Of a DNA stretch of 64,000 nucleotides, positions 1 through 64,000 are shown piece after piece. The notes beneath the pieces were generated by a model. The model made no database searches, was not told where the DNA came from, and was given only the letters and a program-made list of their open reading frames with translations. The DNA is from Dermatophagoides farinae. Its lineage: Eukaryota > Arthropoda > Arachnida > Sarcoptiformes > Pyroglyphidae. The position numbers and the translations under genes are program-made. Every line of letters begins with the position of its first letter. The first letter of the stretch is position 1. The stretch spans positions 186,001 to 250,000 of the forward strand of contig NC_134678.1 in assembly GCF_024713945.1 (NCBI RefSeq), written 5' to 3'.

Positions 1-3000
1 CGTTACAGATGGTGATTTCATTTCTTCTTGTTGTTGTTGTTTGTTTCGTAACATGGCTACAACATAAACTTCAGCCCATGCTTTTAATATGGCCAATTTT
101 TCCATTGTTGATGCACTTTCATTGTAGATTTTTGAATTGGAATGTTTATGCAATTTTTCCAGTGATGAAACCAGAAGTTGATGTACACGACGTAAATCAT
201 TCAGATCACGAGCAACACCGCTACCGATCCAAGCACTACAAACTTGACATGCCATAGCTGTCACATGTGATGGTGTATCCACAGCGAATGCTGGACGTAA
301 TGCAGCACCAACCTGTGCTTGATATTGCTCCAAAATTACATGATTTTCAAATTCCGGTTCTGGAACATGAGCGAATTTATCGATAACTAATTCAAGCGTT
401 TTCAAACCTTCCATACGTAATTGATCACAATCAGATGTAGCACCAATGAATGACATTCGAACTAAATCCGGTAAATGTAAACAAAGAAAATCTTGATCCT
501 GATGTTTGAGACGTTTTTCTCTTGCCATATTCAAATCAAAATGAATCGCAGCATCATTCAGCGATTGACTACATGTGGAAATAATCTTGTACAAAATATT
601 CATGATAAAAACTCGAGTTTGCCAACGATATGTTAGTTTAACATTCAATGAATCATTATGGTTAGATTTAAAACCACTTTCTTCAAAATCACCATCATCA
701 GCATCATGGTCATTTTCATTCGAATCAATGGTGGATGATCCAGCATCTGATGCACTTAAAACTTCTTTACACAATGTAATCCATAGATTGAGATTTTTTT
801 CATCCACATGTTGTACAAGACAATTCAATATTTTCTTAATGTTATTCATATTTGATGAATTTGTTTCATAATCAAGCAATGCGACTAGAATGCCTGGAAA
901 TTGATGATTAGCTCGAAGATTAAAATTTGATATGATTCCAATCTTTTGTTGGGATTTATTTTGAGCGACCCATTCTGATCCATATTCAATCAATGCTTTG
1001 GAATCTTTCTGTGCAATCTGTTGAAAACAACAAATAGATGCTTTACGAAGTAGATACCGTGAACTAATAAATCCATCACATAGAATGAATATCAATTCAT
1101 TCAATTCATAACAATTTCGATCAAACATATGAAGCTGTTGAAGACAAGCGATAGTTTCACTTTTGATGAGGAAATCACCATGTTCTTGTAGTATGGAACA
1201 TGCAATCATTATCATCAATCGAATTTCATTAATTGAATGTGTGGATGATGTTTGAAATTCCGGTCCAATCGTTGTAATAATAGCTGAAAGACATTTGGCA
1301 ATACTTTGATGTATATCAATCAATGATGGCGATAATGCCATCAAAATTTTTAAACATTGCGATAACGTTGGTTCAACATATGGTCGAAACATTGGTCCAC
1401 CAGATTCAACAATCAATGTCAGTGCATGTAATGCCCATAACTGGACCGATGGTGATGAATGATCTTCGGCCAATGCCAACAAAAGACTAATGTTATTCTT
1501 GAGTTGTGGAACCGAACCCATTCCTACGACATAATGATGTATACAACCAATAGCTAATGAATAACCCGTTCTAGTCAATGCATCACGTGCGGTACGTAAT
1601 TTTTCGAAACATTGTTGAGTAATAGTTGATAAAAATTTTGCATCATTAATCGTTTGTACACAACGTCCAAGACTTTCGGCTGCTGCATAACGAATCAATA
1701 TGTTCTGATGATCCAATACATTAAATAGTTGTGCAACGACTAGTTTACGAACTTCATCGATTCCTAGATTGATTTTATTCTCCACCAATGTCTATTTAGA
1801 GATTAAAAGTTGGTGAAAAAAATTATTTAAAAAAAACATTTCGAAAACATACTCTTAAAACGCCAAGCATAGCCGTTAATATGTTGATTTGAATGGCTTC
1901 TTGTCGTGAGGATTTAGCATGTTTCAAACATTCTTGAAAATGATTCAACATTTGAACACGATGTTTTTGTGCCACATAAGGAAAAACCAAGGCAAAGACT
2001 TGTGCCGATTTATTGATAACAGCAACGGCCAATGGTGGTGATGCTGGTACCAATAATGGATCATTGGCCGATTTATACAATATGGTTGGATCATATTCAA
2101 TTGAACCGACACCCGATGATAAATGATTTTGAATCTGCAAATTAGAAAAAAAAATTAGAATCACCAATCATATGAAAACAGAAAAATAAAAATTTAAAGA
2201 TATTCTAAACTCTAAATGAAAAAAATCAAGACAATAACAACAACAGGCCACACTCACAGAATCCTTTTCCAATTTCCTATTCGGTTCCATCTTTGATTCA
2301 GTATTGATAAATTGAAAATTTTAAAAAGAAAAAGTAAAAGGAAAGCCACCCTTAACCGAGATGAAATTTGTACGAAAAAAATCCTACCTGATCTTCTACC
2401 AAACTATGTTCAGTATCTTGAATCCATGAACCAAGTATAATATCAGCATTGGTTTGAATTAGATGACGAATCAATGAACTTGATGTGTTGACAACATTCT
2501 CTGTTAAAGTTAAATCGGAAACCAATAAACGAAGAAGATTTGCAAAACAATTTTCATAAAGTTGTGGTGGTAAACACAACAGGACTTGATATAACCGCAA
2601 TCGAACCATTGTATAGCTGCCTTTGATTGCCGGTCCTAATGTTTTAAAGTGACTATTCAATGATACAAGCATTGCAATAGCTGATTCAACTGGTGTGAAT
2701 AATCGTCGACGTATTTCATCGGTTACTAATTTTGAACAATAAGTTAAAAAACTGGACATTGCAGCCAATGCACCGGCACGATTTTCCAATGTTATCTGCC
2801 AAGTGAAAGCATCACCACGTGCTTTTTCTGAATCCAATTCTTTTGTATTACGTGGAAATGAATTCTTCCACAGTAATAATAAACGGGGAAGAAGATTTTT
2901 AATCTGACCCGGACCTAATGATAATACAGCGCCCATTAGTTGCCAACCAGCTTGTGTTCTTGGCATTGAAAGACGACTATTTTGTGATGCTGTTCGCAAT

Positions 3001-4776
3001 AAATCTTCAGCAATGTTGAATACTAATTTCGTTTTGTTTTGTGGAATGCCTAACGGCGTATAACGAACTGTTCCAAACAATGCGGATAAAACATATGAAT
3101 GACCATTTATTGATTCGGGACTTGTACGTAATGTTTCTAGCCTTTCTAGAGAACGTTCCATCAATGGTGTCAGTTGACTATTTACGGCTAAACATATACA
3201 TCGTAGACACCATGCTGCTGATAATCGTACAATATGCGCTGGATGATTGATTACAAAACAGACATTATCGATCAAACTTAAATGTGTATCATTCAATATT
3301 GCCAAACATGAAGCACCTAATTGATTGATTAATGTACCAATTTCCAACAGACAAACGACCAGAATATGTTGAGCGGTTTGTAAATCAATTGAATTTCGTA
3401 TAACAGAATTTTTTTCTATTTCAGCATTTGCTGAATCTTGAGATTTTGGATTCGTACTCATCACATGTCCAACACGTGAATATTGTGACATTATTTTCAC
3501 CAGTTCTTTGATTGCCATAAATTGCCCCTTTTCCGTAATGTATGTACTGATGATCATTTTCAAAATGAATGTTATACATCTGCGACTGTGGATAGCATCT
3601 AAATGTGTGGAGACGGCTTTTGAATTGCTTAGGATTTCGAAGAAATGATTTAATAAAACCGGACTATTTCGTTCGATCCATTCATAGCCCATACGATTAC
3701 CGAAATCTACATAGGAATGAATGACACCGATTCTGATTTCACGATTGGCCGTCGAACTACCTTTAATCATTTCGCCAGCTTTTAAGAATCCAATTCCACC
3801 TCGTAAAAATCCCGAAGCCAGGAGATTTAGTACTTCTTCAAGGGTAAAAATCTTCACCTTTGTCGAATTAGCCGATATTTGAAGTGATTGTAGACTTTGT
3901 CTAATCGAAGGCGTTTGTGTGATCGCTACAACCGTTCCAAGAGTTTGAGCTATAGCCAAACGAACCTCATAATTGGATCCATCCAATGCACGAAAACAAA
4001 GCGAGAAAACATTTTCAATTTCGGTCGTATACAAAAATGATGCTACTTCGATCAGTTTCTGCAGGCAACTAGCTGCATTAGCTCGAACTGACATGGATCT
4101 ATCCAACATTCCATGTTTCAGGCTTTTATAGACATCACGATGTATCGAATTTCCAGCTGAACCTAATCCAGAAATGATCATCCGTAGTGTGGAATATATT
4201 TCGAATCTTGTTTGAGACTGTTGTCGAAAAAGTAAAAAAAGTAATTATAAGGTAAATTGAGAAATATTACTATTTACATCAACATTTTTCAGTAGTTTCA
4301 AAAGCGATTGAACTGTTTCTTCGTATGTTCGACCCATCAATCGTCCAAGATTTTCGTACATAATACCTATGCAAATTATTGAAGATAATTTTGAATTGGA
4401 AATTACTGCAGAATCATCTTTATTTTTTAGAGTCTCGATGAATTTATTGACCGTATCAAACAGTAAAAAAGTATCACCAACAGTGAATATCATTGCCAAA
4501 CATTTTGCAATCAATCGTCGAGATGGATTGCCATTTTGACTAAACAATTGTTTTATCAGTTGATCGACTAAAGTCTTTTGAATATCTTTAATATCATCCT
4601 GTGAATGGTTGAAAATTAATACCGGATAAATCTGATTTGAATTTACAAACCTTTTCGGCTTTATGTAAAAGTTTCGACAAATGTCGCAACCAATCATAGA
4701 CATAAATAATTTTCTTTTCACCATTCAATTTATGGAATTCGGTTTCGTTGAGCAGATAATCACTTTGAGAGGCCAT
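1..4776 (-). CDS. HEATR5B: HEAT repeat-containing protein 5B (HEATR5B), 3' end beyond window
   Basis: Large alpha-solenoid protein that works with the AP-1 clathrin adaptor (aftiphilin/gamma-synergin complex) in endosome-Golgi trafficking; that role is family knowledge. Reconstructed exons on the minus strand are 4776-4651, 4598-4278, 4217-2388, 2134-1853 and 1791 to beyond base 1, all joining in phase 0 (about 1450 residues visible; human protein about 2070). Recognisable family stretches include VGDTFLLFDTVNK, DRSMSVRANAA, ILGSWIQDTEHSLVEDQ, HRVQMLNHFQECLKHAK, NHVILEQYQAQVGAALRPAF and LKAWAEVYVVAM. The start MASQSDYLLNE aligns with the human N-terminus (LLNEEAYNQLG). The open frame runs off the window edge, so the C-terminal third is missing here. 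Introns are 53-253 bases. It is divergent from FAM50. Family assignment is very secure. Confidence 0.95.
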
Positions 4777-5042
4777 TTTTTCGCTTTTTTAACAATTCAC
4801 CATAAACGATAAGATTTTTAATTAATTCATTACAATTGGAATCGAATATTTTTTAAGATTTAATAAAAAAAGATTCTATTTTTGTCAACGCGTCAATTTG
4901 TCATTCCAGTAGGGTCAAAATAGCCATCGCTTTATTGTTTACCAAGAATCGGGTCAATTTGGCTACATTCAAATTGATTTATTTTGGAATTTATTCAATT
5001 ATCTTGAGTGAAAATTGTTTTTTTTTTCATTCAACCAACAAA
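4777..5042. promoter_or_regulatory. Shared intergenic region between divergent HEATR5B and FAM50 (candidate bidirectional promoter)
   Basis: Only 266 bases separate the two start codons, which point away from each other. I see no TATA box at a convincing place and no ORF. The region is AT-rich. An upstream ATG at 4935 is in frame with FAM50 but gives a non-conserved leader, so the region is treated as 5' UTR plus promoter. Shared promoter use is inferred from spacing only. Confidence 0.5.
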
Positions 5043-6173
5043 ATGGCTCATTATAAAGGTGCAGCATCCGAAGGTGGTCGAGCACTTCAATTACAAAAAC
5101 AACGTGAAAAAGCTTTGGAAGAATTGGAATTACGAAAGAAAAAAATTGAAGATGAATTGAAATTATCAAACATCAGGAATAAATTCGCTGCACATTATGA
5201 TGCTATCGAACAGCAGATTAAATCATCGACAGTCGGTTTGGTCACACTGGGCGAGATGCGTGCCAAACAAGAAGGTCTGGTTAAAGAACGAGAACGACAA
5301 TTGGCATTGAAAAAAGAATCGATGATTAAAAAAGAGATTGAATTACGGAATGAGCAGAAAGAAAAACAAAAGAAACAAATCAAAGCATTATCATTCCGAC
5401 TTGATGAAGATGAAGATGAAGATGAAGAAGAAGAAGTGCAGAATGATGATGATGATGATGATGAATCCGAAACCGATAAAAACGAACCGAAATCCAATAT
5501 TATCAATGATGATTCGAAATCAGATTTAGATTCATCGGATAGCATTAGCCAGGACTCATTCAACAATCATAATGATGAACCACAAAATAAAAAACGTAAA
5601 ATGATGAAAAACCCAGATGTGGACACAAGTTTTTTGCCGGATAGAGTACGTGAAGAAGAAGAAAATCGTCTCCGAGAACAATTGCGTCAAGAATGGGCTG
5701 AAAAACAGGAAAAATTAAAAAATGAAGAAATCGAAATCACTTTCAGTTATTGGGATGGTTCTGGTCATCGACGATCAGTGATGATGAAAAAAGGCAATAC
5801 AATGTATCAATTCTTACAGAAAGCCTTGGAATTACTGCGTAAAGAATTTCATGAATTAAAAACAGTTACCACCGATCAGCTGATGTATATAAAAGAAGAT
5901 TTAATCATACCACATCATTATAGTTTCTATGATTTCATCGTGACTAAAGCGCGTGGTAAAAGTGGACCATTATTTAGTTTTGACGTACATGAAGATGTAC
6001 GGCTTGTGTCCGATGCGACCGTTGAACGTGATGAATCACATGCTGGTAAAGTATTACTGCGTAGCTGGTATGAACGTAATAAACATATATTTCCAGCCAG
6101 CCGTTGGGAACCATATGATCCAAATCGAAATTATGATAAATATACTATTGGTGATCGTGTTAATAAAAAATAA
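5043..6173 (+). CDS. FAM50A: FAM50/XAP5 family nuclear protein
   Basis: Single-exon CDS of 376 residues ending in TAA. XAP5/FAM50 proteins are nuclear, associate with spliceosomal C-complex components and affect mRNA processing (family knowledge). The start [14 protein letters not shown] matches the family start MAQYKGAASEAGRA, so the in-frame upstream ATG at 4935 is rejected. In order: a charged coiled-coil N-terminal part containing [18 protein letters not shown]; an acidic linker of Asp/Glu runs (about residues 120-180); a basic KKRK motif; then the strongly conserved C-terminal XAP5 domain with [65 protein letters not shown] and [13 protein letters not shown]. Length agrees with human FAM50A (339) plus a longer acidic linker. 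It is tail-to-tail with hth. Confidence 0.97.
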
Positions 6174-38806: not shown

Positions 38807-41800
38807 TTAATGATGTAAAACACGATGATGATGATAATTATCATTTTGGCTATTATTGTGCTGTTGTTGTTGGTGCATCACATGATTCGATGATGATGAT
38901 GATGAAGCGATATCTTTATCAATCATTGACGTCGTCGTCGTTGTTGTTGTTAATGACGATGATAATGGTGGTGGATTGTTTGAATAGATGACGATAGGAA
39001 AAAATTTTACCTGTGTTTGCCATTGTGGTGTTAGTTGGAAAAATTTTACTCCGGAATATTCAACACCATCAATTATCACTATGATGACGAGGAAAATTAT
39101 GAATGAAAAAAAATTACCGTAAATCAAAATGAAATAAAACTTACATTTAATTGGTGATTGTGAGGTTTTATACGAGCAAACTAGACGACAAATTCCTTCA
39201 ATTGTTTGCCTTGGACATTTATTGCCATCAACATCTTTTTCTTTTTTCTTACCTAATCTCATGACTGGAACAAAAAAAAATTCAAATAAATAAAAAAAAT
39301 CTCATCAATCAATCAAATACAAACTTTTCTGTTTCTTCTCTTTGGTAATGTACGAGAAAGTTAATGATGAACAAGTTGCTTCACCAAAATTTGGTAAACG
39401 AGTTATTTGTACATGACGGAATGAATTTTTCAATGTAAATTTACAATTATCGCTTTTTTTATTCGACGATGATGACGACGACGATGATGATGAAGCCATT
39501 GCTGATGATGAGGAAATATCGACAATTCTTGGCTGCAATGATGCTGTCCAATAATCAAATTGTAAATCCATTACTTCATTCATCATCATTGATTCTTTAT
39601 TCATCAATTGATTGAATACATGCTGATTATTAGCTGTTGTTGTTGTTGCAGTCATGCTGGGAGAATTTGGTGGCGTTGATATATGTTGTTGTTGCTGCTG
39701 TTGATCTTTTGAATTAAATGTCGGTGATGTAATAATAGATTTATCAATCATCATCATTGCTTGCGTTGTTGAAACTTGTGGTTGCGATTGTTGTTGTAGC
39801 ATTGAATTTGATGATAAATTAATACCAACCGTTGAGAAATTGAATAATTCTTCTTCCATTGAATGGCTGCCAGCGTGATCTGCAAGACCTAAATATTTGA
39901 AAATCATTACTTGAATGAAACGAAATTCAAAAGCCATACTTACCAATTTTAACATCACAAATAAATGGAATAAAAACCTGATTGGATTCATCATCAAAAT
40001 TTTTATCTTTATATGTGACCATTGCTTCAGCTATTGGTATCTGTATTACGGTTTGAGCATTATTTATAAAATTTACAATTTTCTGATAAAATTCATGTAT
40101 TCCTTGCAGATTATTATTATTATCAATCGATGATTGATTATTTTCAGCAATGGTGGTGGTGGTGATGGTGGTGTTGTTAATAAAGCGACTAGAATCATAG
40201 TCTTTTGTCGTTAATGATTTTGTTGTTGTTGTGGATGGAAAAAAATATTGTGAATATGTTTGATCTATACTAGCAATGTATTTATGAAGCATATTTGATC
40301 CATAATGATGATGCGGATGATGATAACCATGATGATACAGATAATTGATTGGAATGATGAAGAAACGGAAAAAATTTTGCCATTCCTGCGATTTATTGGC
40401 CAATGATTCAACATAATAACGTAGAAACGAATTGATGTATGGATCAGAACCAATCAATATTAATTTGATTGGTGTCGAGATTTTCAGATTATTATTATTA
40501 TTGCAATATTTTTGTATACGATTACAGAGGAAATTGAACGATAAACGTATATCATTCAATGTATTTGTTGTGATTATTCGATAATTTGTACGTTCAAACA
40601 TTTGTATGAATGATTGTTGTTCTTGTTGATTATTATGCATACATTCCGTTAGATTGATAAATATTATCTCTTCCGGTATAGTGGCCGTCGGTTCTTCCAC
40701 AAAAACCTTGTTCAATTGATCGAGAACAAATTCTTTCGACTATGTGGGATAAGTAAATAAATAAATTAATTAAAATTTCGAGGAAAAAAATTAAACATAC
40801 AGTATTTGTTGCTGCTGTGTCATCTTTATGATGATGATAATTTGTCGTCGTTGATAACAATGACATTGTTGCATGTAAAGATTTTTTCTCCTTTTCCCTA
40901 TGATTATGGTGATGATTTTTATTGTCTTTATCTCTGGGAAAAAGTTTTACACGTTTCGTTTCTTTATCAAAGCTCAATTTCTTCTTATTGTGTGCTGATG
41001 GTACGATTAATGTATCCACCAAATCCAAATTCATTTGTTTCTGGCTATTATCCGATGTTTCTGGTGTACCATCAGTACCCGAGGTTTCTTGACTTTCATC
41101 TAGTTTATTCGTTGAATTATTGTTATTGTGTTCAGCAATGGGAAACTATTCAATATAGATGAATGAATGTGAAAAATCATCATCATAATTATGAAATTAG
41201 AACTTACCTCATAGGATTTATCCTGTCCCACCAGTGTACAGGATGAAAAGAATGGCCTTAAACTTGGTTTAGGCGTGGAAGAGATACTAACATCATCAAA
41301 TTCTTGCCCACTATCTGTCATATAATCAAGATCATCGATTTCTTCATCATCAAAAAATTCATCAATATCTTCTGGCGGTTCCTGCGTAGACGACATTAAT
41401 TCTTTTTCCAATGCTTCCTGAAATTTTTCCTCCGAATCATAGGCTTCAGAATCGGGTAAACGAAATTTTTTCAATAATGATATGAATTTCTGTTTCAAAT
41501 TTCTTTGCTGTACATTCGTTGGAACAATCGAACGAAATTTATCATTTGTAGTGAATAGTTTTCGTGATTTATGATCATGATTCAGTTTACGACGAAACAT
41601 AACATTATTACCTTCTTCAATCGTTTCACTATCACTGCCATCTTCAGCAGAAGTGAAATCATCATCATCACTATAAACATCGGGACGATCAATAGAAACT
41701 TTTCCACGTCGTAAATTACCACTACTATTATCTTGATTATCGATTGGTTGACTTTTTAGCGATGAAATCATTATTCGTGCAATAATTTCATTTTTTCCAA

Positions 41801-42469
41801 TATCTTTTACACGGCCAATTAGATCAAGTGTTTTTTCATTGATGGTTGAACGTTGTAATACTTCAACCATATCAATTAGGCCACAAGCTAATGTTTTGTA
41901 ACCTTTTCAACAGTGGATATAGATGATAATTAATATAATAATAATATTAATGATTAATGATAATGATAATGATGATAATTAACACAGACAAACTTACCAA
42001 GTATTGCTTTATTTTTATATTTTTTTCTTCGCTGTAATATAATTTGTAGATAATTTCGATTTCTTTTTATAAAATGTGGATATTGTAATGTAAATGAAAG
42101 ATCTAATTCAATATCCAACATTTGATGCTGTTGCTGTTGTTGTTGTTGATCATTCGATTGATTAGTTGTCGATGATGGTATAGTTATTTCATTTGAACGT
42201 AAAATACGTTTTGAATTTTGCATTTTAACAGCAACCATAATGGCTGTAGCATCTGTCCATAGTGATTTATTCAATGTTAAACGTGTTATATTCAGTGAAC
42301 ATAATCTCGGTATACAATCTGATGGGGTTTTATCAATCTCCCAAGCGCCAAACAATTTCATTTTTACTGGTTTATTATTATTTGACCACATTGTTGTTGT
42401 TGTTGCTGTTGCTGTCATTGTCGATGATGACATTTGTTTGGTATTTGTTTTGTCTGCCATTTTTTGCAT
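38807..42469 (-). CDS. PACS1: Phosphofurin acidic cluster sorting protein (PACS1/2 homologue)
   Basis: Cytosolic sorting adaptor that links acidic-cluster cargo such as furin to AP-1 and coat proteins (family knowledge). Seven coding exons, phases checked: 42469-41998, 41902-41208, 41145-40801, 40739-39944, 39888-39325, 39264-39145, 39078-38807, giving 1087 residues (human PACS1 963). In order: a Thr-rich start; the cargo-binding FBR domain (about residues 36-175) with LFGAWEIDKTPSDCIPRLCSL, KMQNSKRILRSNEI, SFTLQYPHFIKRNRNYLQI, LQRRKKYKNKAILGYKTLA; acidic clusters (DEFFDDEEIDDLDY) followed by STPKPSLRPFF; then the conserved C-terminal region with PIAEAMVTYKDK, DDESNQVFIPFI, LQFDYWTA, YITKEKKQK, IIDGVEYSGVKFFQLTPQW. 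A poly-Gln run interrupts the FBR domain. The C-terminal 35-odd residues (Ser/Thr/His/Gln-rich) are lineage-specific. The start could also be the Met at 42460. Confidence 0.95.
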
Positions 42470-42488
42470 CAATAGATTTTGAGTTTTT

Positions 42489-42556
42489 CTGGGATGAATG
42501 ACAAAAAGAGAGAGAAAAAATAAATCACAACAATCGAAAAAAAACATCAACTTACT
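42489..42556 (-). other. Intron in the PACS 5' UTR and end of its noncoding first exon
   Basis: A consensus donor (CCA|GTAAGT) follows 42556 and a pyrimidine-rich acceptor ends at 42489, just before the start codon. This suggests an upstream noncoding exon ending at 42556. Its 5' limit is not visible. Confidence 0.55.
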
Positions 42557-43786
42557 GGAAAAATAATGTTGTTGTTTTGTTCACACGACAAACGACGATT
42601 GGATCATCATTTTTTGATTAAAAACATTGATTGATAATTGGCGAAATTTGAAAATTTAATGGACAACCATCATGGAAAAATTGAAATTATTAAAAACGAA
42701 AAACAACGGATTCAAATGATAAAAAAAAATAAATTTGTGCGTTTTTTATTCATTTTCGCATCTGTATGTTTGATTGTTGTGTGTTTTCGCCATTGAAATA
42801 ATGCCAAAAATTGATAATCATCATGTTCATCATTCATAATAATTGGATCCAAATGATGGAAAAATACATATTTTCATTTCATTTTTTATATTAAACGAGC
42901 GATGAATAACCCAGACACACACACACTCTAACATAAACAATTACATTGTCATAATAAATACTTGCTCTTTCTCTCTCTCTGTGGATGTGTGTGTGTAAGC
43001 AAATACCAGATTATTAAAACAAACAAATTGAATGAAAGAAAGAAATTCTCATGTAACATGACAATTTATGATGATGATGATGATGATGGCAACCGACGAA
43101 CGACGAACAAAACAGAAATAGAAATTCCAGTTGTCAAAAAAAAGAGGATACAACACACAAACAAAAAATTCAATCCATCCATGGATTGTAATAATGATGA
43201 TGGACGCAATGAAATATTTTGGTTCTCCCGTTCATTTTTCCATTGAAAAGAATCAATTGTTAGAGATATATCCAAATCCAGAAAAAAAAACAATTTTTAT
43301 TTACCGCTACAACAAACATAAACATAAACAAAACCAGAGAAATATATAACAGTAGCAGTTCAGTGAATGTTTTGTTTGTGTGCCTCGCCCCAAAAGAAAG
43401 ATAAATATCCGCATGTATTTTGCATGCACACATATGACAGTGTGAGAGAGTTGAGTTCAAGTTTTGGTTATATATGCGTTGTTGTTGCACCCAATACCGC
43501 CACCACGAATCAACGATCATTTGGTGAAATCCCTCTGCTGCCATCTTGGTTTTTCATTACGAAATTTGTATAAAATTAATAAATTTTTTATTTATTATTA
43601 TTTCCAATTCAAATTGAAATCGTCTTATTATTGTCCGTTCACATGTGTTTAATATATAGTTTAAAAAAAAATATCATGATGATGATTGGTACAATGGCAT
43701 GTAATGAAATGAAATAAATGAATGAAGATGATTCATCAAATTTGGATAATCATCATAACAAATTCACATGTCAATTTTGTGAATCA
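42557..43786. other. PACS promoter side and SMARCE1 3' flank
   Basis: Low-complexity DNA with (GAT)n at 43068-43087 and a (CA)n run near 42914. A YY1-like element CCAAGATGGCAGCA is on the minus strand at 43537-43550. Minus-strand ATTAAA near 43647-43653 and AATAAA near 43590 could end SMARCE1 transcripts. ORFs here overlap repeats and are not supported. Confidence 0.5.
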
Positions 43787-49433: not shown

Positions 49434-52400
49434 TCAGATTTGACTTGAACAAATGAATGCTACGCCTCGTTCATAAAACATATATTCTTCTTGTCCATCA
49501 CCAAGTTCTAAATCAACGGAGAATAATAATTCCGATCTTGTTGAATTCAGATAAACAGGTAATGTAACTTTGTTCATTGGATTTTTATCCATTTCAGTAT
49601 CAGATACACGAACCCATTTGAATGATGTCAGTTGCAGTGGTGATAAAATCTTATTAGTTACATAGAGTTTATTTTGTCGTACTTCGGCACCTTGAAGTTT
49701 TAAGCCAACAATACCGAATGAAGATTTATCAATCAATGTATCGGAATCAGAAATATGAATCTGCAGCATCAATTCTTCCAATGACCAACCATTAGCTTGA
49801 GCAACAAATTGTCGTGTAGCCGTTATATAAGCTTCCGGAACGAATAATCCACCAAGCCAAATATTAAGGTTCTAAATATGAAAAAATTATTTAAAATTAA
49901 AAAAAATGATGAATATTTTTCAATATCTTTACCTTTAGATTTGAAATAGATGATGATGAAATTTGTTGCATCTGCTTAATACGATCAGCGAAATCAGTTA
50001 TCCATTGAATCACAGTGAATGATTCTGGTGTACGATAACGTTTCCAATGGTTAGGTATCATACCTTTAGCCAGGTATTCGGTGATTTCTCGATGATAATT
50101 CGTCTGTTTCTTTTCGCCACGACAAATGGCAATAACATCTAGTAGATCTTGTCGTACGACTTGCAGCAATTTATTGGCATTATTAACTTCACGTTCAAAA
50201 TATCGATATAATGGTTCTTTGATATTGTCCGATGTACGCTTCATTGCGGCTAATTGATTAGGAATTAATTTGAGCCAATTTGATGCTGAATTCAATAATG
50301 TACGCATCCAAGCTGGACGACCATCTTCATTATCCTGTCTATTCGTATTCGTACTGGTGTCAATGCCATCTGAACCAATTACGACGATATCATCATCATC
50401 TTCAAGTAATTGTAATTTCAATAATTTGGAAATCAAATCCACACCATGATTTGTGAGTAAAACCAACTCTGCTTTATTTGGTAATCCAAGCCATGATGGT
50501 GTTTGGCGATCCGATAATGATTCTACCCAATTCAAAAATTCATCACGACGTATTATTCCTTCTGGTATGGTAATGTTAGGCATTGATGATCCGATGATGT
50601 TTTCATTATCTTGTTCCCGAGCTAGAACGAATTCTGGTTCAAAACTTTTTGGCGTAAACAATTTCTGAAGAAATGTGGTAAGTAAACGTTGATCAAAATC
50701 ATTATCAATTTTACCACCATAAATACATTGACCAAACAGAGTTCGTATAGCATCGAATGGTACTTTTTCTGGGGGCAGATTTGTACGACCCATTGATACA
50801 GCATCGATCCAGGTATCCAGTGTATCGAATGATACTTTCAAATCAGACTCATTAAATTCATAACGTTTGGACCATCCTAATGGACAATATCGAAGTCGTT
50901 CCTGGACGATTGCATGAAACCATGAAACCAAAAAATAAAGTCTCGAACGTTCATTTGGTGATTTCATCATTCTTGATGCTGGAATCGTTGAAAATGTTCG
51001 TAATAGATTGGCTCGTATACCTGGTGGTGGTTCAAAAACAAATATTCGTCCTGCTCGTAGCAGATTCACAGGAATTTTTGGATGAATTTCCAATGTTAAA
51101 AACAATCTGAATGATGGATTTGATTGTAAGGCATGTAATTTTTTCTCCAATTGTACTAGCCATTGGGGTGCTAGATGAACATTTTTGAGCATAACCCATT
51201 TTCCACTTTTTGATGCTGAATTGATAGCTTTTTCAGCCTGAGAAAACCCTTCAGCCGAACCAATAGCAATCGAGGTTATTGGACGATTCAATTCAGCGGC
51301 TAAGTCATCAACACGTCCACTTGCATCATAACCAGGTACTGAGCACATCAAAATTGGTGTACTAGCTTTGATCAATTTTTCTACAGCTGCACCTAAATCG
51401 TATTCACTTTCAGCAATATGTGAAAAATGTTCACCAAAAATAACGGCCACAACACGATTTATGATTGATATAACACGATCTGGACGGAAAGTATGTATGA
51501 CGAGTAATTGATGCATAACTTTACCAATTTCTGATAAGTTTTTATCATCATCCCAAACCACAGGAACATTATCTTCCGGTGTGCCAGTATTTAGCCATTC
51601 ATGAAATTCTCCGGAACAGTGATCAACATTTTTCTGTAAATTACGGAATGTCCGCAGTTTCGATAAAGCTGTGGCTGATTCTAAACGATCCGATTGTATT
51701 TGTGGTATATTGATTAATGGCTGTCCAGGCAGTATTCCTTCCAAGCCACGCATCAGATGATCAAATTCATTTTCAAAATTTCGTTCACTTGAAAAAAATA
51801 AAAAGGAAAATCAAATTTTAAAAGGATAAAAAACTTATCAGACTTACGTTGTAAAACCACGAATATAAATTTTACACAACAGTAATGCAAAAACCAACCA
51901 ATCCTGGTGTAACATTCCACGCGTAACACGAACATAGACAACTTCAAATAGTTTTTTCGTTATATTAGCTAAACGTTGATTATAATCAGTAATTTGTTGT
52001 TGATTACTATTTGCTAGAACATCATTGAAAATATCCAGAAAGAATTGCAATGAATATTGATATAGGAAATGAACTTGATTCAATCCTTCCAATGTGAAAT
52101 AAATGGAACTACAAGCCTGTGCCAATGGGTTATATTGTTGTGAAACGGAATCCACTTCTGCAATCACCTTGTCGGTTTCTTCGACTTTTTTCGATATTTC
52201 ACCAGCTTCATGTTTCAATTTTTCCAGTGTAGATATGATAGAATCATCATCTAGAATTCTTCCTTTTACATCATTCAATGCTTGCAGTAATGATTTTTCC
52301 AATCTTCGCAGTTTCACATGAAATTCACCTTGTAATTTCAACAAATCTGAACGTTTTTCATCAATATCTGGACGTTCACAACGTAAAACTTGATTCAAAC

Positions 52401-55400
52401 ATTGTGCCTGTAGACTGGAACGTGTTACAGTAAAATTGACGAATGTAACACGCGAACAAATGTCTGGAGGAAACTCAACTGTTGGATCACGTGTTGATAA
52501 AAATATACAAAATGATGGTGAAAGATCAATATCTTGATCTCCTAAAGTAATTAATACACGACCACCGGTTTTTCGCACTTCACGATTGAGAACGGGATTC
52601 AATATTGGATCATAATTTTCTACATCTTGAACCAACAGCGGATTACCAAATCGCAAGGCGGATTCTAAATTTTTACGGAATGAATCATCCAAGAAACTTG
52701 TTTTCGTTATACGTTTTTGATCAAATTCCGACAATAGGAAACGAGTAGCCTGTCCAGATGGATCAATAATCAATGGGAAACGATTGAAACGTTTCAACAT
52801 GATTGCATTTTCAACACATAAATCATCCGATGGTAATGAATTGGCTTGCCAACGTAAACGTTCATCAGCTGTGGATAGATATTCAGTGAGAGCCAAATCA
52901 GATCGATATTGAATCTTTGCTTGACTTAGATGTGTACACCATGAATTAAACAATGATTGTCGATATTGTTGATCGAAATAACCGGCATAAGCAAGGAATG
53001 CAGCCGAAAGTATACAATCACCAGCAATAGTTTGCATTTGATTTTTAAATGTTTCCGATGAATGTTCCCAACGTTCACGTTCATTACTAAGACTTTTTAA
53101 TAATGCAATTGATCGATCAACTTTTGATTGAACATTAGCCAAATCAGATTTGATTGCTTGTGCTTGTGATACAAGATTTGCATATTCTTCTTTATACGAT
53201 GCAATCGAACGTTCTAATTGTCCAACAATGCGATCTGTTTCCGCAGCTTTAGCTTTATTAGCATCCGCTTCGGTTTCTAGACTTTTCAATTCATTACGCA
53301 GTGGTTCAATTTTTTTCAACATATCCGCATAATTAACCTGTGCGATGGCCCATTTCACCAATGGTTCACAGGCTAAACTTGCATGTTTGATTTTTTCAAA
53401 ATTATAATCTGGATTTTGCATGTATTTAGTGATCATTTTTTGACGAATATCTTCACTATAAATGAAAAAAAAATCATTAGTCAATGATAAAAATTGGTGC
53501 ATTAAAAGAATAATTTCAAAGGAAAAGAAATCAAAGCAAGCGACTAAGCGATATATATTATTATTAAATTACGTGATATCTTCAGCGGTAAAACTAATTA
53601 TATTTGGTATGAAATTCTCTTTGATTATAATTCCACGTAGTACTTTCCAATCTGTGGTTGATTCACCCAACAACAGACATATTGATTCCAATACATTTTT
53701 AATTATCGATGGCGGATTGGACATTGTACGAATTTCGACCAAATGTTGTCGTTTGATTGATTTTACTCCTGTTGATTGATTGATTGATTGATTGGTGGCC
53801 AAAAATAAAAAACACACGTGCATAGGAAGCAAGCAAGCAAAGCGGTGGAAAGCAAAAAGAGAAAAAGAGAAAAAAATGTTTAGTATTTTTTCGCTTACGT
53901 AATATTATCGGTTTGAAAATTGACAATTGTAGAAATGAAATTTTCGCGCATCAAAATCGATCGAATCACTTTCCAATCGGTAGTGGATTCACCCAACAGT
54001 AAACAAATGGATTCTAGGGCCAATTTAACTGCCGGTGGTGGATTGGTCATAGATTTTACTTCCACCAAATTCTGTTTCTTGATCGATTGTACAGCTAATT
54101 TTTTTCAAAATAATTTTCAATTCCAAAAAAAAAGAAATACGCGCGAATCAAACGAAAAATGAAACCGAAATGAAAAAAAATGAAAACAAAAAAAAAATGA
54201 AAAAAAACAAAAATTAAAATCATGAAACGAAAATAAAACAAACGTAAAAGATAACGACATAAATGTGTTCAATTATTGTCCAGAAAACAACCATACCTTG
54301 ACGAGCTTCTTCAACTGCTGGTTTTACTTGTGCTAAATCGGCCATAACTGCAGCGGTTTTCTCTGCAATTTCCGTTTCTTGTTTCTATTGAATTGATTGA
54401 AAAAATGAATGAATTTCAGAACAAAACAAATCAATCGATTCACTTACTTTAAGCATTAATTGCAGCTCTTGTGATTTAACTTTTTCACGTTCAGCTTCTT
54501 GTTGATCTTTTAACATTTCTTTCAATTTAGCATTTGCAGCTTGATTTTTAGCTTCCAAATCATTTGATTTTGATGCCAATGATTTTTGCAACTCTTCCAC
54601 TTGTTCAACAGTTTCACGGATTTTCGTCAAGCCAACATTCAAATGAAGTTGTTCATCTTCTAATTCTGAACATTTTTCATAGAATAATTTCACATAATGA
54701 TTAATTAGGTCCAGATAATGACGTGGTGTTATTGTCGTGATGCGGCCACCACGACGTAAAAGACGTTCATTTGCATGATGTAAAGTTTGATGAATGTAAA
54801 CAAAGGAATTGATAACAGCATCACGATGTCTTGGTGATTGTGGAAAATTATGAAATGCTGCCGGAAATGTTTCTGGTGGTACATAACGAGCGTTTTCCAA
54901 ATCCAATTTACATGTGAATTCATAACCAACTTGAAATTGTGCTTCCGGGGTCCAATCACCGAACCAATTCAATACACAACGATTAAACAAAGCTGGCGAT
55001 GTGGCAGCACGATCTTTTAACCCTTCACTTGATGGATTCATAGTGAATACAACATGTAGATTTTTTATCACTTGTTGTGTAAACCATTTATACAATTCTT
55101 CATTTGAATCCAACATAAGACCTTCGCGTTGACTTGCATCTTTAATCTGTGTGATCAGTGTCGTGTATTCATCACCTTCAAACAAACCAGGTACTTCACC
55201 ATTTGCCAACAAGGTGTTCATTCGTTCCAAGAAACCAGAATCCAATACATTTGATTCATCGAGAATAAAACAAATTTTTTCATTTTTACAACCAGAACGC
55301 CGTAATACAGAACGTAAATCTTCATCGAAATCAGCACCGGAATATTTATTATGAACTTTAATCTGGAATATACTCAAACCATTCATCCAGGCAACAAAAC

Positions 55401-58400
55401 GTGATAACGTGGTTTTACCAGCTCCGGATACACCAATTAATAAAAGATGTCCTTGTGGTTGACGGAAAATACGATCAATACGTAAAACATGATCGAGAAC
55501 TTCATTGAATAAAACCAGTTGGACATCTAATTCTTCTTCATAGAAAACCTTTAAACGTGCTTTTACAAATTCACGCAATTGTTCACGATCAACGGGTAAA
55601 TAATCTTTTGAAAGCCAATTGCTATAAAGAATTGGACGATTTAGTGCTTGTTGACGATCAATATTGGGAAAATGTTTCAATGCAATCATATCGATATGTT
55701 CATCGGTCCATTGACGTTCATAATCTTCAACAAGACGATCCTGGAATAACCGGAGACCTTCATGTGCCCAAAGACGAACTAATCCCTCGACAGTGAGTGA
55801 ATCAAGTGGACGTATCGCCTCAACAATACCACGTACCCAACGTGTTAATTCACGAGGTGAATAAACATAATGTGGTTGCATATCTTGTGTAAAACGTTCC
55901 TGGGACATTAGATAAAATTCAACCATAGCTGATGTCAAGGGTTCAGCATATGCACGCAAGTTGGGCATAATTTTCAACATTGCACGATTAAATGTACCAT
56001 AAATTTGTTTCAACGAAGTTTCGCCAGGATAATCTACATAAATAATTGGAACATGACGCAAGAAGCGGTGTGATAATGGTTTACGGCCAGGATCCGTTGG
56101 TGGATTACATGCACCAACAAATTGAATTCTCTCTAGACGAACCCATGAATGATCCTGCGTTCGATAGAATCCTCCATATTCAACCAATTGTCGTAAAAAT
56201 GAAATGACACGTATCGTTCCATATTTATCCATTTGTGGTAGATTAATTTCATCACAAAATAAGATGAGCCATTTTCCAATCTGTATCGGCGACATAACCA
56301 GACCATTCGGTGTTTTACGACATTCACAATAATGATCAAATGTTTTCAATAGCAATTCCGGGGTTGTGGCGGATGAGAAATTCAAACCAACAACTTCCAT
56401 ATCTGGTAATGAACGTAATGAATTGAACAATGTCATTGTTTTACCAGAACCCGGTGGACCACAAAGTACCAATGGTTTATGTTCAGCTAGCCAGGTATTT
56501 AACAGCAATTCATGACGTACAGTATCCACCGTTGGTACAACAACATCAGGTGATGCCACTTTATGTGTTTCAATTTCAATCTGTGGTACTTTATTTTGCC
56601 ATAATGACCATTCACCATTCAATGTTATTTCATAGTCAATCAATGAATATGTTGGATTCGCTGGTGGTAACGCGATTGTCGTTATACTACGTATAAATTC
56701 ACCAAGATCTTGACGAACTTTTAGTTTTCCATCACCAGAAAATGACCACAGAATGCTATAAACCAATGAACATGGAACATATTTTTCCAATACATCCGAC
56801 GCGATTTGAAAATCCGGATGATTTTGATTATAAAGCAATATGTTTCGGCAACATTGATTTAATAATGAAAATAACGAACTTAGAGCACGTAAACGTGTAA
56901 AATCCATTATATGTTCTTGTTTCGATGCAAATTCCAATGCCCGTTTGACAAGACCATCGGGTGAGAAATAATTTTGTAAAATTTGTGCAAAATTTCTTTG
57001 AATTTGCAATGAATCACTAACGGCGTCATCTTGTTCTGGTTTTGTTGTTACGGTTGTTTTCGTTGTTGTCATGTATGCAGCTAATGACGATGATAAATCA
57101 TCATCCAAATCTTCCAATGGAATATTGCGTAGACGAGCGAAAAAATTTTCAAAAATCATTTCCGTTGTAAGAACATCTTCGGAGAACCAGATCATACCAC
57201 AACGTGAAACAGTGGCTAATGTTGCATATTTCAGATCTTGTACTTCAAACATAATTCTTACATTTGGCGGTATGCTAAGCCGTTCACCATTCGGCAATGT
57301 AAGCAGTTTATTATCATCCAAAACTGAATTTAAATTCTCAACCCATTCTGGATCCACATCGCCATCGAAAATAATCCACTGGCGTTTATTAATTTCACCA
57401 CGAACATTATCAATAATTTTTCTCAATATATGTGTAAATAGACCATCAGTCCATTCACGAGTGTTTGGATCCAGCGTACCATATAGGGCTTCTTTCGATA
57501 TTGCTTTTGGATTTATTACATGTGCAACACCTTCAAGACCATCAAAACGTTCTAAAGCGCGAAGTAATACTTTCCATGCTGTTGATTTGCCGCTACCAGA
57601 TGGTCCAACCATCATTAAACCATGATTAAGTTGTGATATTTGATATAATTGCAGCACTTTACCCAACCATGAACATTCATCTTGTTGTGAATCAGAGTCC
57701 GAATTCGATGTCATTGATTGATCATTTATCAGTTGGCAACCATCATCACCGTAATCACAAACAAGATACATCTCGCTACAAACATTACGTATTTCTTCGC
57801 GTAATTTTCGCATTTCTGCCCGTGTATATTTAATACCAGGAAATACATCGGATAATAATGAAAATAATAACGGTATATCTTCAGCAATTAATTTTGGTAC
57901 CATTGTTTCACAAATACTTTGTATAAGAATCTCTTGTTCCGGTAATTGTTCAGCAATGGTTGCTTCATCAATAGTTTGATCTGATTGACGTATACGTTGA
58001 ATACGATCACGTTTAATGTTACCAGCCGAAACGAGCACTGATTTTAATGCACGTAAACCAAAATCATAATGTGGTTGATTCGATAATTGTTCGTCACATA
58101 GCTTGAAAAATGGTACGATTTTCGTAGCCAATTTTTCAGCCATACGAAATCCTTGCGAGAAAAGCATCACTTGAGCAATCAATTGTCGATCCGGCTTATT
58201 CATTGCTAATGATCGGAATAATTTTTTCAAATTATCCGGCAAATTTGATCGGCCAGCATAACCGGGATTCATCGTGATGAATATTGCCATATCTTGATTG
58301 ATTCGAACTTGTTTACCGATTAATTCGACAACCAATTCAGATTTATTGGAATTATTTTTCAATGTTTCTTGAATTTGTTGTATTTGCTGCGATACGGCCG

Positions 58401-61400
58401 ATAACATACGTTCTTCCAAACGATTAAATTCATCAAAACAACCCCAAGCACCGACTTGACAAAGACCAACAAAAATACGTCCCATTGCTTGAAAATCAAA
58501 TGTTTCATCGCAATTAAATACCAGGACAAATCTTCCCAATTGATTTCCTAATGCTTTAACCGATTCGGTTTTACCAGTACCAGCTGGACCAAATGGTGAA
58601 CCACCGAGACGTGCTTCTAGCGCTTGTGTCATAGTAAGATAACAGCGATCAGTCAGTGGTGTTTGTACCAATTTTTCTTGGACACCAAGATATTCGAAAC
58701 CATAAAAAAATTTTGCATTTGCCATATGAATCGTCAATTGTTGTAGAATATCTGTTTGTTTTGGATCAAAATAGAAACGCATCTGCGAAAGCCAATCGAA
58801 TGATTTATTCGAATGAATTTGTTTCCTTATCAATTCCCTGGTTACATCACGCTTATGAACAAATTCCGTAATTAAATGTTCAAGTTTTTTTCTTCTTAAT
58901 GGTGGTTGTTCTTGCAGCACTGAATCAGCCAATATTTGTAACGTTGTCTCAACTGCTTCAAGAACTTGATCTAATTGTTTTTGTTGTTGTTGTTGTGATT
59001 GAATCAATGCGGTTTCAACCGATTCAGACCATGATATCTGTACAGCCAATACGACAATCTGTGCTTGATATCGATCCAACCATTGAATGAATTGATCCAT
59101 TTCAATTTTTTGTTGGCCACTCATACGAAATAGTGCCTGATCTGAGACAGCTTGTGCCAATAATTTTCCCAATGTATAACGCATCTCTCGTTCCAATAAT
59201 GAAAGCCATTTATTGATTTTCGGATTATCAATTATCGATATCGGATTGAAAAAATGTACTTCTTCACCTTCTTTTGAACACAAACCTAATACATGGGTTT
59301 GATCATCATTCAAAATGATTGAAGAGACGCCGGCAAACATTTTTTTGAAATGTTTTTGTAATCTTAGAATATTTTTCGAATTGCCAATAATTTCCAATAA
59401 ATCTTCATCGCCAACAAAATAAAAACGTGGAAATGATGAACGTTCTCGTTCCAGGTATTCACCTAATGCTTTTTGTATTTTACCCAATAAATCAGATAAA
59501 CGTTCCAATGATCGCTGTACACCAGGTATATTCATTACATCAATAATCATTGGATTTTTCGATACTTTTTTCATTAATTGTAAAAATTCTGAACTAATTG
59601 ATTGAAATCTTGATGTTTCCACCGGCAACAATGCCTGGATGTCTGAACTGCCACTAAATATTCCTTCGAGATAGACCCAACGGCGTTGTACATCGATCCA
59701 AACATCAAAAATTGCATTGATACGATTCAGCTTTTCTTCCCATGACAGGGCATCTTCTTCAAATTCTTTATAATATGGTGATAATTTCATTGCCGATATT
59801 GAATTAATATGTTCTTTCACCTTGGTGAACAGATCATCCCAACCACGTATGATACGACATTTATTCTGGTAATTTATCAATTCCAACTGATAAGTTTGCC
59901 AAAATTCACGAACTTGTTTCAGGAATTCTTCCAATGCCATTTCGCCTTGTGCAACTTGTATGATATCTTTAACTATAATTTCATTCTTCTGCAAGTCGAT
60001 ATCCCAAACTTGTCCTAATGTCAATTCAGATAGTATCCATTGAACACGTAATTGCTTACAAAGATGACGCCAATGACGTTCTTTCAAAGCATCGGATTTC
60101 AGTTCTACAATCAATACATTGGATTTTGTATATGATTGTAACACACGTTTCACATAATCATATGATGCATATTGTCGTAATCGTGCCGGCATTTCTTTCA
60201 GTTGAGCCAACAGACCATCTAGTTGTTGACGAAGTTTTCTTGGCTGTACCGATAACCATGGCATCTCTTTCAACGAGTCAATTTGTTCCCAAACTTTTGC
60301 CAATTCAGTCCAAACGAATTTCAAATCTTGAAGTTCTTCCAATGATACCTGTAATAATGGAAATGGATTAATTGTTTACTGCTTCGAATTCAAACTCAAT
60401 TTAATTTCATACCTGTAATTTTTCATCATTTGGACTTGATGCTGATAAGCCAGGTTCCAACAATTCTAATGCTTCTTTTGCACGCATTATATTGTCACGA
60501 TCTTCACGTAGATGATTAAATTTTGTTTCGAAAATTGTTAAACGGTTCAATGCCTCTTTTGGATTTATTGATCCCTGTACTGGTTTTCCACGTTCCCATT
60601 CCGTCAAAAATTCCACAGTTCTTGCTTCAACCAATTTATCTTCAGCAACAATTTTCACCTGCAATGATGTTACCTGGTGTTGTATCGATGCATCTTTACG
60701 TTTCATTATTTCATTAAAAGCTGACCATTCACCATCAATATTATCGACGTGAAGCCAATTATTTGGAAATTGAAAACGTTGCCTTTCGAGAATTCGTTGT
60801 CCTTCTTTATAAATTTCTACCTGTTTGCCCCATTGCAAAATTTTCGATTTTAATGATTGTACATACGTTATAAAGGTGACAGCATCTTTTGTATTAGCCG
60901 TGTCGATGGATTGTTTTTCCAATTCCAATCGACTATTCGATATGATTGAATGCAATGATGACATTTCTTGGCCAAGTAGTGAACCAAATTTACTCAATAC
61001 TTCTTTGTGCCATGAATCATATTTCAACGTAACTTTTGATTGTACTTTTGCATAATCCACAACAAGTGGTCCAATTTCTTTACGTGTATCAGCGGTATCA
61101 AAAGTTGTACGTGATTTTTTTATCTCCACCAATGTATTCATCCATTTCGTTATATCATCACCCAATTTCGTGTAAAGCATATCCGATTGTAGATCCCATA
61201 ATGATTGATATGTGAGCCATTGTTGAATGTAATCACGCATTTGTCGGATTTTCATTTCAATCGCTTCATATGCTTGATTCAATATTTGTGGTCCATCATC
61301 AGGCATTTTATTCAATAGATCACGATAGTGTCTCGATTGTGGACGATCCAAACCAACTTGATAACGACTTGATTCAATACGTTGCAATGTAAGTATAACA

Positions 61401-63932
61401 TTTTGCCATGCGAACAATTCTTGCAATAGATTGAATCTTGCCTCTTCAATCGATGGACTAACATACATCACTTGATTGGTAATGCGAATTTCATGTATTA
61501 AGATTTGTATTTGTGGATCACCACCTGGTCTGGCTATATTTGCGATCGGTGAATCTGTATCGGTCAATGTATCCGTATCAGTACCGTCTTTATTCGAACC
61601 ACCGCTACCATGACCACCAGCACCAACAGCATTACCATCCAGTGCACGTGTCCATGCTTTGATACCGGCTTGTAATCGTAGCGCTAAACGTTTTTCAACT
61701 TCTTTATCTAAACGTTGTACCCATTCACTTAGATTAGAATAACGATGCAACGATAGATCATCAACAGCTTTTTGTATCTTGTTCAATATTTCAATAAATG
61801 TGAATGATGAATATGTACAATCTTCGATGGATTTGACTTCCACATCAATCTGTTCGACGATATCCAATAATTCATCGACTTTTTCCTGGAAATTCAATAC
61901 AGTTTCACCCAATTTTTGTACATATGAATCACGTTTATATGATTCCCATACCATTGTAGCACCTTCAGAGATTAATTCTTGTACTTCAGATTTCAGACCA
62001 GCCACCAACAATGCCAATGAAGGCTTTTGTTCCACTTTTTCACATGCACGTTCATATGCCTTAACAGTTTCAATCAATGAAACGGCAAATGGAAAATGTT
62101 GATTTGCTTGATGTGCTTTATTCACAATACCCAATGGGACGCGAAATCCAAGACTACGTAGATTACGTACTTCTTTAGCCAATGTAATGATATCCGGCAG
62201 GAAATTCACTCTTAAACGAAAACCAGATCTTTGTTGTGTTCTTGTTGATTCAATAGTGAATATTCTTCCACTAACATTTAGCTGTTTTTGTTGTATATTA
62301 CGACACCATTCATCGAAAATACTTTGTGTATTCAGTTTCATACGAAAACTTTCAGCATCATTTTTCAATTTCTGGCCTTCAATATGGCTTTCCCAACCTT
62401 TACCCAATACATCTTCAACACGTTTCATATAAATAGATAATTTCCGTTCAATTTGCCGTGCCCATATTATCGAACCAGAAACCAGCGGCAGATCATAAAC
62501 ACGTGACATTTTACATGCCTTATTCTGTGGATATTGTATTTTGAATTTTTCATGTAAAGTTTCAATATCATCTTTTACACGTTGAATCAGTTGAGTTTGA
62601 TATTCACGAATCGCTCCACTAATATGTGGCCGAACAAACAATGCATTGAAACGAGAGAAAATACGAAACATTTCGTTAGCATTTTTAGCCATTCCAAGTT
62701 GATCACGAAGTTTTGCAGTAATACGTGCTTCAACACGATCAATACGTTCTTCATAACGTTTCAACGATGCTTCCCATGAATCGGTACCTTCTTTTGTCAT
62801 ATCTAATGCATCAACTTCTTTTACTAATTCATAGGCAATATTTACTTCTTCAATTTCATTTATATCTGCAGATGCCATCATTGATGTAGATGATTGCGAT
62901 GATAATGTGGAATCAAAACCGGACGTTTTTTCAGATCCAGTTTCCGTATCAGTGCCATCTTTTGTTTTGTTGAGTACAGCCGAAGAGGTGGATGGTCGTA
63001 AAACACGCAATATAACAGCACGTAATTGTTCATGTTGACGACGAAATTTACGCATCTGTTCCATACGTATCTGTAGTTTTTTATGAGCGAAATTTATACG
63101 CCAAATCATTTTCAAATGTTCATCACGTTTCTTTTTGACAATATCACGCAATAACGTCTGGAATTTTTCATATTCATCATCCCATGCAGTGAATACTTCA
63201 AAACATTGTGTTATGATTCGATCAAATTCTTCATATGGGATATGCATCATACGTCTGGTACCAAGTACTTTAAGCATTTGGGACATTAGATCCCTAGATA
63301 TGGCTTCCATCAGTTTCAATGCACGTTTCATTGGATATTTTGTATTACGAATTTTACGTAAATGTTGAAATAAAACTTGCAATGCAATACGAATTTTTTG
63401 TAAATCCGTTGCGGCCAATAAATCGTTGAGCGGAAAATCTTTCATCAATGGATTATAATCCGCTACGGTAGCCAATGCTTCTTTTAATCGTGTATCGGCG
63501 TCAAACGAAACCGTTGCATGAAATCGTTTGCCATTTTTCAATATTTCCAACGTGGTCACCACTTCAATACTTTCACGTTTTTCTTGGATTCGTAATAATG
63601 CACGTTCAAGATTTAGCCAAAAACTAATTTCTTGCATTGCTGTACCACTGCTGGCATCACGATCAAGTTTAGTTACTTTTTGTATTTCACGTATCCAACG
63701 ATTAACACCAGCTTGCAGTTGATTAAGAAACACTGAATCATTAACTTTATCACCAAAATGTTCCATTGTAATTTTCTGGCCATCTTCACGACATTTATTA
63801 ATCACCTGTTGAACATATGGATGTATTTGCAGCGTTATCTCGGGTATATCGATATTTTGCTGTAAATGTAATAGACCCATTTCAAGTTCAGCAATTTTTT
63901 TCTCAACATTTGGTGCCATTTTATCACCATCT
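49434..63932 (-). CDS. DYNC1H1: Cytoplasmic dynein 1 heavy chain, N-terminal ~170 residues beyond window
   Basis: Minus-end-directed microtubule motor subunit. Exons: 63932-60413, 60348-54448, 54384-54297, then either 54094-53899 or 53768-53573, then 53455-51848, 51787-49933, 49871-49434, about 4534 residues here. The first codon is split; AAAG at 64000-63997 followed by GTTTGA may be the end of the previous exon. The tail starts [19 protein letters not shown], nearly identical to human. AAA modules show Walker A motifs GPAGTGKT (AAA1, near 58580), GPSGSGKST (AAA2, near 57595), GPPGSGKT (AAA3, near 56450), GVSGAGKT (AAA4, near 55425) and Walker B-type [21 protein letters not shown]. Stalk helices flank the microtubule-binding domain; AAA5-6 and the C-terminal domain follow, ending [10 protein letters not shown]. 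The exon encoding the first half of the microtubule-binding domain is duplicated. Introns are otherwise 53-202 bases. Confidence 0.98.
53573..53768 (-). CDS. DYNC1H1: Alternative microtubule-binding-domain exon, distal copy (D2)
   Basis: 196 nt, entered after CAACAG and left at AC|GTAATT. It encodes a complete 66-residue segment containing [37 protein letters not shown] and [19 protein letters not shown]. It aligns without gaps to the mammalian dynein segment carrying microtubule-contacting helices H1-H3 and to the proximal copy. Relative to the mammalian sequence it differs mainly in H1 (IIKNV for AVKLA) and H3 ([10 protein letters not shown] for IRSIIMRENF). Its acceptor is preceded by a (TCAA)n repeat rather than a pyrimidine tract. 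Confidence 0.92.
53899..54094 (-). CDS. DYNC1H1: Alternative microtubule-binding-domain exon, proximal copy (D1)
   Basis: 196 nt, entered after AAATTAG and left at AC|GTAAGC, with phases identical to the distal copy 130 bases away. It encodes [40 protein letters not shown] and [17 protein letters not shown]. The H1 stretch [20 protein letters not shown] is identical to the mammalian one, so this looks like the more ancestral version. It shares 40 of 66 residues with the distal copy, including 17 consecutive ones. Confidence 0.92.
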
Positions 63933-64000
63933 CTGTTTGGATAAATTGATTAGAAACAAACAAACAAAAAAAAAACTTTGGATTTTTTTTTCAAACCTTT

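Follow-up and report, generated by a model that had tools for sequence, protein, structure and literature searches.

Homologous exons in motor protein genes

The closest described system comes from the flatworm Schistosoma mansoni, whose cytoplasmic dynein heavy chain gene SmDHC1 carries a pair of mutually exclusive exons, so called after more than 2000 heavy chains had been aligned (PMC3228551). Like the pair described here (exons A and B), these belong to a cytoplasmic dynein heavy chain, have equal lengths, are strongly homologous and split codons at both ends. However, they come from a flatworm, and the accessible portion of PMC3228551 neither names the encoded domain nor treats selection, contact residues or mechanism. 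In the same way, the muscle myosin heavy chain of arthropods is a motor tuned by swapping homologous exons, although the exchanged pieces are there elements of the motor domain such as the relay, not the track-binding domain of a dynein (PMC3228551, PMC2257972).

For dynein itself, the heavy chain genes of the arthropods studied in PMC2674883 had previously been neither analysed nor classified, and Dhc64C was described as having several maternally deposited isoforms, the accessible text not giving the site at which they differ (PMC5147784). In mouse and human, the dynein-1 heavy chain appears to exist as a single isoform, and the variety of dynein is otherwise credited to other subunits (PMC3824068). 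The Drosophila Dhc substitution S3372C differs from the A/B pair in being an induced mutation, located in the H6-CC2 loop, and not an exon swap; words starting with exon or splic occur 0 times in the main text of PMC11215527, in the portion accessible. Among the matches listed from the open-licence PMC literature, none describes an exon swap in the microtubule-binding domain (MTBD) of a dynein.

A dynein-1 heavy chain gene with two MTBD exons

The window, i.e. the whole stretch of 64,000 nucleotides analysed (C2:186001-250000), holds on its minus strand (63919-49434) a gene for the heavy chain of cytoplasmic dynein-1, which is intact and has 4530 codons. Its model, which starts at an assigned ATG (63919) and closes with a stop codon ending at 49434, has eight placed exons and seven introns, all of them GT-AG. 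The features are as follows.

60413-63919, minus strand: exon 1, open frame from the assigned ATG at 63919, donor GTATGA
54448-60348, minus strand: exon 2, motor domain to the start of the stalk, matching human DYNC1H1 1319-3266 with 3440 bits
54297-54384, minus strand: exon 3, stalk, 88 nt, with the donor common to A and B (gene model)
54095-54296, minus strand: intron before A, 202 nt, whose only AG is its last two bases
53899-54094, minus strand: exon A, MTBD, the version closer to mammals (mouse DYNC1H1 MTBD, E 1e-28, 52/64 identical)
53769-53898, minus strand: intron between A and B, 130 nt, with a 123-nt AG exclusion zone
53573-53768, minus strand: exon B, second version of the MTBD (mouse DYNC1H1 MTBD, E 8e-27, 45/64 identical)
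53456-53572, minus strand: intron following B, 117 nt, whose best branch-point-like motif lies 25 nt before the acceptor
51848-53455, minus strand: exon 5, remainder of the MTBD with H6, stalk CC2 and beyond, with the acceptor common to A and B
49933-51787, minus strand: exon 6 (gene model)
49434-49871, minus strand: exon 7, with the stop codon (gene model)

With the window ending at 64000 and the frame still open slightly upstream of the assigned ATG, an additional 5' exon may lie beyond the edge. The match of exon 2 listed above compares with at most 999 bits for axonemal chains and at most 922 for dynein-2 (best 60 of 85 matches), whereas exon 5 gives 880 bits (E 3e-264) against human DYNC1H1 3363-3894, versus 326 and 282 bits for axonemal chains and dynein-2. 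By these searches, which used exons 2 and 5, the gene is best read as that of the cytoplasmic dynein-1 heavy chain (DYNC1H1), ranked above dynein-2 and the axonemal chains, as the preliminary description had proposed in speaking of a cytoplasmic dynein. This description had also spoken of a mite, which agrees with the presence in the genome of the Pfam family Blo-t-5 at three loci (best E 2.6e-53; none in 14 control genomes), which we take to be a mite-allergen family and a marker of astigmatan mites. Genes seen elsewhere in the window include one for a PACS sorting protein (39927-42580) and one with an XAP5 domain (4857-6173).

Resemblance of the two exons and frame lock

Exons A (54094-53899) and B (53768-53573) both measure 196 nt, that is two bases, 64 codons and two bases, and share the same phase. 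Their products align without gaps, with 40/66 residues identical, 17 of them consecutively. A comparison of the window with itself (blastp, E<=1e-4, low-complexity filter on, 1173 stop-to-stop frames of at least 30 codons) returned three pairs, namely A/B (E 2.7e-21, 60.6% over 66 residues), its antisense shadow and a single 19-residue match between distant places. Chance is excluded as the origin of the resemblance between A and B.

An artefact of assembly or haplotype could also duplicate an exon, but the two copies are identical at only 127/196 positions in their DNA and their introns differ, and a search of the 62.4-Mb, 22-contig genome with exon A scored three places, which are A, B and dynein-2; the probability of such an artefact is negligible. 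The same whole-genome search revealed no third copy of the MTBD exon and no retrocopy. No relative of the MTBD exons, or of a 200-residue piece of exon 5, was confirmed in collections of prokaryotic and viral contigs, a result uninformative on other animals.

With A alone or B alone, the coding sequence measures 13593 nt (4530 codons plus stop) and is open from start to end. When A and B are joined, the frame shifts and a stop appears inside B, 129 nt before its end; when both are skipped, a stop is met 20 nt into exon 5. Thus, only the inclusion of one of the two yields a motor. The preliminary description, which had presented two consecutive and interchangeable exons of 196 nt, was exact in its coordinates, AG/GT borders and counts; the junctions that it gave (54297, 54094, 53899, 53768, 53573 and 53455) fit a model open from ATG to stop with either exon, and the interchangeability agrees with a frame kept only by one of two and with the constraint that both copies seem to be under.

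With a probability of about 0.86, A and B can be read as homologous exons that exclude each other in the transcripts of this dynein-1 gene. A given mRNA would carry A or B, never both, the choice being made, as we infer, at splicing. The reading frame and the conservation of the sequences suggest that one exon is used at a time, so that the mite can probably build two dyneins differing only in their grip, i.e. two motors of 4530 residues whose differences would all lie in one stretch of 66 residues of the MTBD. The early stops caused by double inclusion and by skipping could also trigger decay, as would be expected if the exons were independent cassettes, or if one of them, as a poison exon, reduced the amount of dynein through a frameshift and gave no second protein. 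However, a poison exon need not keep 64 MTBD codons under protein-level constraint, and A alone or B alone gives an open full-length frame, which makes this explanation very improbable.

Position of the duplicated segment at the tubulin interface

Both exons match the same MTBD segment of mammalian DYNC1H1 (E 1e-28 and 8e-27), human residues about 3295-3360, which runs beyond the last H3 contact (human 3344). In yeast dynein, six residues form salt bridges with tubulin: K3117, E3122 and R3124 in H1, R3152 and R3159 in H3, and R3201 in H6, and mutating the tested positive ones lowers the affinity more than twofold (PMC7042235, whose helix names H1, H3 and H6 are used here). Mouse R3334 and R3342 are the named equivalents in H3 (PMC7042235), the mammalian residue at the place of R3334 being a Lys in the alignments made here, and mouse K3299 adjoins D427 of beta-tubulin, the partner of yeast K3117 (PMC6629372). 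Five of the six salt-bridge positions fall by alignment inside the exon, where A and B have K/R, E/E, K/R, K/K and R/K. The charge of the contact is kept at 5/5 positions in both exons while the side chain is altered at 3/5 by K/R swaps, and the K, R, D and E residues sum to a net charge of +1 in A, in B and in mouse.

Seven of the A/B differences lie at exon residues 2-16, in or near H1 if its limits are those that we assume, and H2, H3 and the residues after them also carry changes. On tight binding, H1 alone among the helices moves (PMC6629372). Altogether, the differences between A and B look like tuning rather than loss of binding, and the Drosophila S3372C mutation shows that a changed MTBD can act on a subset of functions (PMC11215527).

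The preliminary description had aligned both exons with the part of the stalk tip (helices H1-H3) that touches tubulin. This holds for the gapless MTBD match and for the H1 and H3 contacts, which are inside the exon; the H6 contact is located in the constitutive next exon. In this exon 5, and hence in both isoforms, human R3384, presumably a tubulin contact of H6, aligns with a histidine of the mite (window 53383-53385; KHASLAC versus NRASLAC). The human change R3384Q is linked to disease, and flies with the equivalent R3370Q fail before adulthood (PMC11215527).

Selection on the two copies

Between A and B, about 74% of the synonymous sites differ (dS about 3, saturated, an estimate obtained from 43.5 sites and near saturation) versus 24% of the nonsynonymous sites (dN 0.28), these pairwise values giving no separate rate per branch. 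Among the fourfold sites that they share, 3/12 are identical. Relative to mouse DYNC1H1 (52/64 residues identical for A, 45/64 for B), A agrees with mouse against B at 14 positions, B agrees with mouse against A at 7, and both copies differ from mouse at 5. The one-sided changes are distributed as 14/21 in B versus 7/21 in A (binomial P 0.19). In a three-way comparison, the point where the branches of A, B and mouse meet stands 3/64 residues from mouse, with branches of 9 residues for A and 16 for B. These distances describe an unrooted tree, with mouse as the single outside sequence.

The constitutive neighbours give a scale for these values. Compared to human, the remainder of the MTBD is identical at 24/37 residues and the first and second match blocks of exon 5 at 63/101 and 77/101, so that B at 70% is inside the 62-76% range of the constitutive neighbours on that side, although A and the 77/101 block are both better conserved. 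A neutral simulation, starting from A and allowing substitutions only, without selection or indels, produced open sequences with at least 45/64 mouse identity in 370/4000 runs at 0.1 substitutions per site, in 1/4000 at 0.2 and in 0/4000 at each of 0.3, 0.5 and 1.0. Given this simulation and the saturation of the synonymous sites, B is, as judged from its sequence, neither a recent nor a freely decaying copy.

These results bear on the proposal that the gene makes a single dynein, one of the copies, more probably B than A, being a relic or a duplicate that is never spliced. The differences from mouse are more numerous in B than in A, and B has a weak donor (GTAATT) and a weak sequence adjoining its acceptor, as a relic might. 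Against this, the frame of B is open and in the right phase between AG/GT borders, its five contact charges are preserved, and its mouse identity is one that 0/4000 neutral runs reached at 0.3 substitutions per site or more, while the synonymous sites are saturated. Such a relic is thus unlikely. Both members of the pair look constrained at the protein level, and B reads as a second working grip, in keeping with mutually exclusive use of the two exons.

Putative mechanism of exclusion

The three introns around the pair (202, 130 and 117 nt) are longer than the other four, which measure 60-64 nt. Upstream of both A and B, the AG exclusion zone is at least 100 nt long (200 nt for A and 123 nt for B), versus 28, 56, 86, 44 and 53 nt for the remaining five introns. 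Long stretches without AG are not exceptional in this window: at 20000 random places, 198 nt without AG were met 116 and 134 times on the two strands (0.6-0.7%), and 120 nt without AG 749 and 552 times (2.8-3.7%). The 20 nt adjoining the acceptor hold 7 pyrimidines for A and 10 for B, versus 13-19 for the other five introns. Directly before the acceptor of B, at about 53771-53794, lies an ATCA tandem repeat, whose variation in length between individuals could alter splicing.

The best branch-point-like motif of the intron before A, TTTTAAT (A at 54214), is 119 nt upstream of the acceptor and is followed by a long U-rich tract. In the intron between A and B, the branch-point-like motif TACTAAA (53885-53879) has its A at 53880, i.e. 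at intron nucleotide 19 and 111 nt from the acceptor of B, with a pyrimidine tract directly after it (about 53878-53847). This motif is imperfect, without the last pyrimidine, and a weaker conventional candidate, CACCAAT, lies 23 nt from the same acceptor. The weights used were set by hand and are noisy, the top candidates of the short introns being at +45, +32, +10 (implausible) and +36.

Large AG exclusion zones with big remote pyrimidine tracts are also features of alpha-tropomyosin and of exons 4a/4b of OGDH, where the branch point lies within about 50 nt of the upstream donor, as the putative one of the mite would (PMC7969005, PMC1431707). For this distance, a steric threshold of about 50 nt from donor to branch point was proposed (PMC7969005, PMC1431707), although its role in OGDH is described as unclear and the donor was not always freed by lengthening it (PMC7969005). 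Branch points were mapped in human OGDH (25-41 nt from the donor) and rat Tpm1 (41 nt) (PMC7969005, PMC1431707), whereas the mite has one imperfect predicted motif, at 19 nt. The mite gene also differs from this comparison in its ordinary introns of 60-64 nt. New relative to the preliminary description, which named neither a possible mechanism of exclusion nor the flatworm pair, are the long AG-free zones with distal pyrimidine tracts and the branch-like motif near the donor of A, for which a role as in tropomyosin and OGDH is predicted.

If this prediction is right, the distant branch point of B would be too close to the donor of A for A to be joined to B, and remote pyrimidine tracts would serve both acceptors. 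This arrangement is the likeliest means of enforcing exclusion, at about even odds. The exclusive use of A and B is also compatible with competing RNA structures of the Dscam type, with regulators, or with decay of the wrong products, an explanation only slightly less probable. The branch-point reading is a motif match, and decay alone would lead to the same protein outcome. Nevertheless, all seven introns are GT-AG, and a search for RNA pairing in 53456-54296 (seed 8, length at least 10) found one inverted repeat, of 13 nt and 92%, with an arm inside B. No docking/selector pattern of the Dscam type was seen in this region of a single sequence, from which weaker pairing could escape.

Dynein and tubulin complement of the genome

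Each of two family searches of the genome returned this dynein-1 gene together with a dynein-2 gene and no axonemal heavy chain, so that the genome has at least two dynein heavy chain genes, the counts being lower bounds. The dynein-2 gene matches human DYNC2H1 with E 7e-81; its MTBD lies inside a single frame of 2974 codons, and a second copy of it was not seen.

Twelve tubulin loci were found, four of which (L011-L014) look beta-like, their frames being read by eye. L011 and L012 have IREEYPD, the divergent beta-like L013 has IGEEFPD and the divergent beta-like L014 (G000:C19:277334-277699) has IRSEYPD, where Ser replaces the first Glu of REEYPD. By the numbering that we assume, this Glu is the partner of dynein H3. 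A matching of the two grips to tubulin isotypes, one of the uses suggested in the preliminary description, may be imagined; A and B being alike in charge at all five contact positions, no such match is claimed.

Implications

Judging from the three-way comparison with mouse, the A/B split could be old. It is even conceivable, although doubtful, that the pair is an ancient splice switch which perhaps predates the mites and may have a common origin with the flatworm pair, so that one animal would run two retrograde motors, each suited to its own tracks, loads or cell types. The two grips would tune affinity, load response or track preference according to tissue or stage.

A and B form a natural pair of grips with the same charge at five salt-bridge positions and different residues at 26/66. 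If they are used as proposed, this pair would be a ready-made experiment on what the MTBD contributes to affinity, load response and track choice in an otherwise unchanged motor, and the exon swapping known from muscle myosin would extend to the track-binding surface of dynein.
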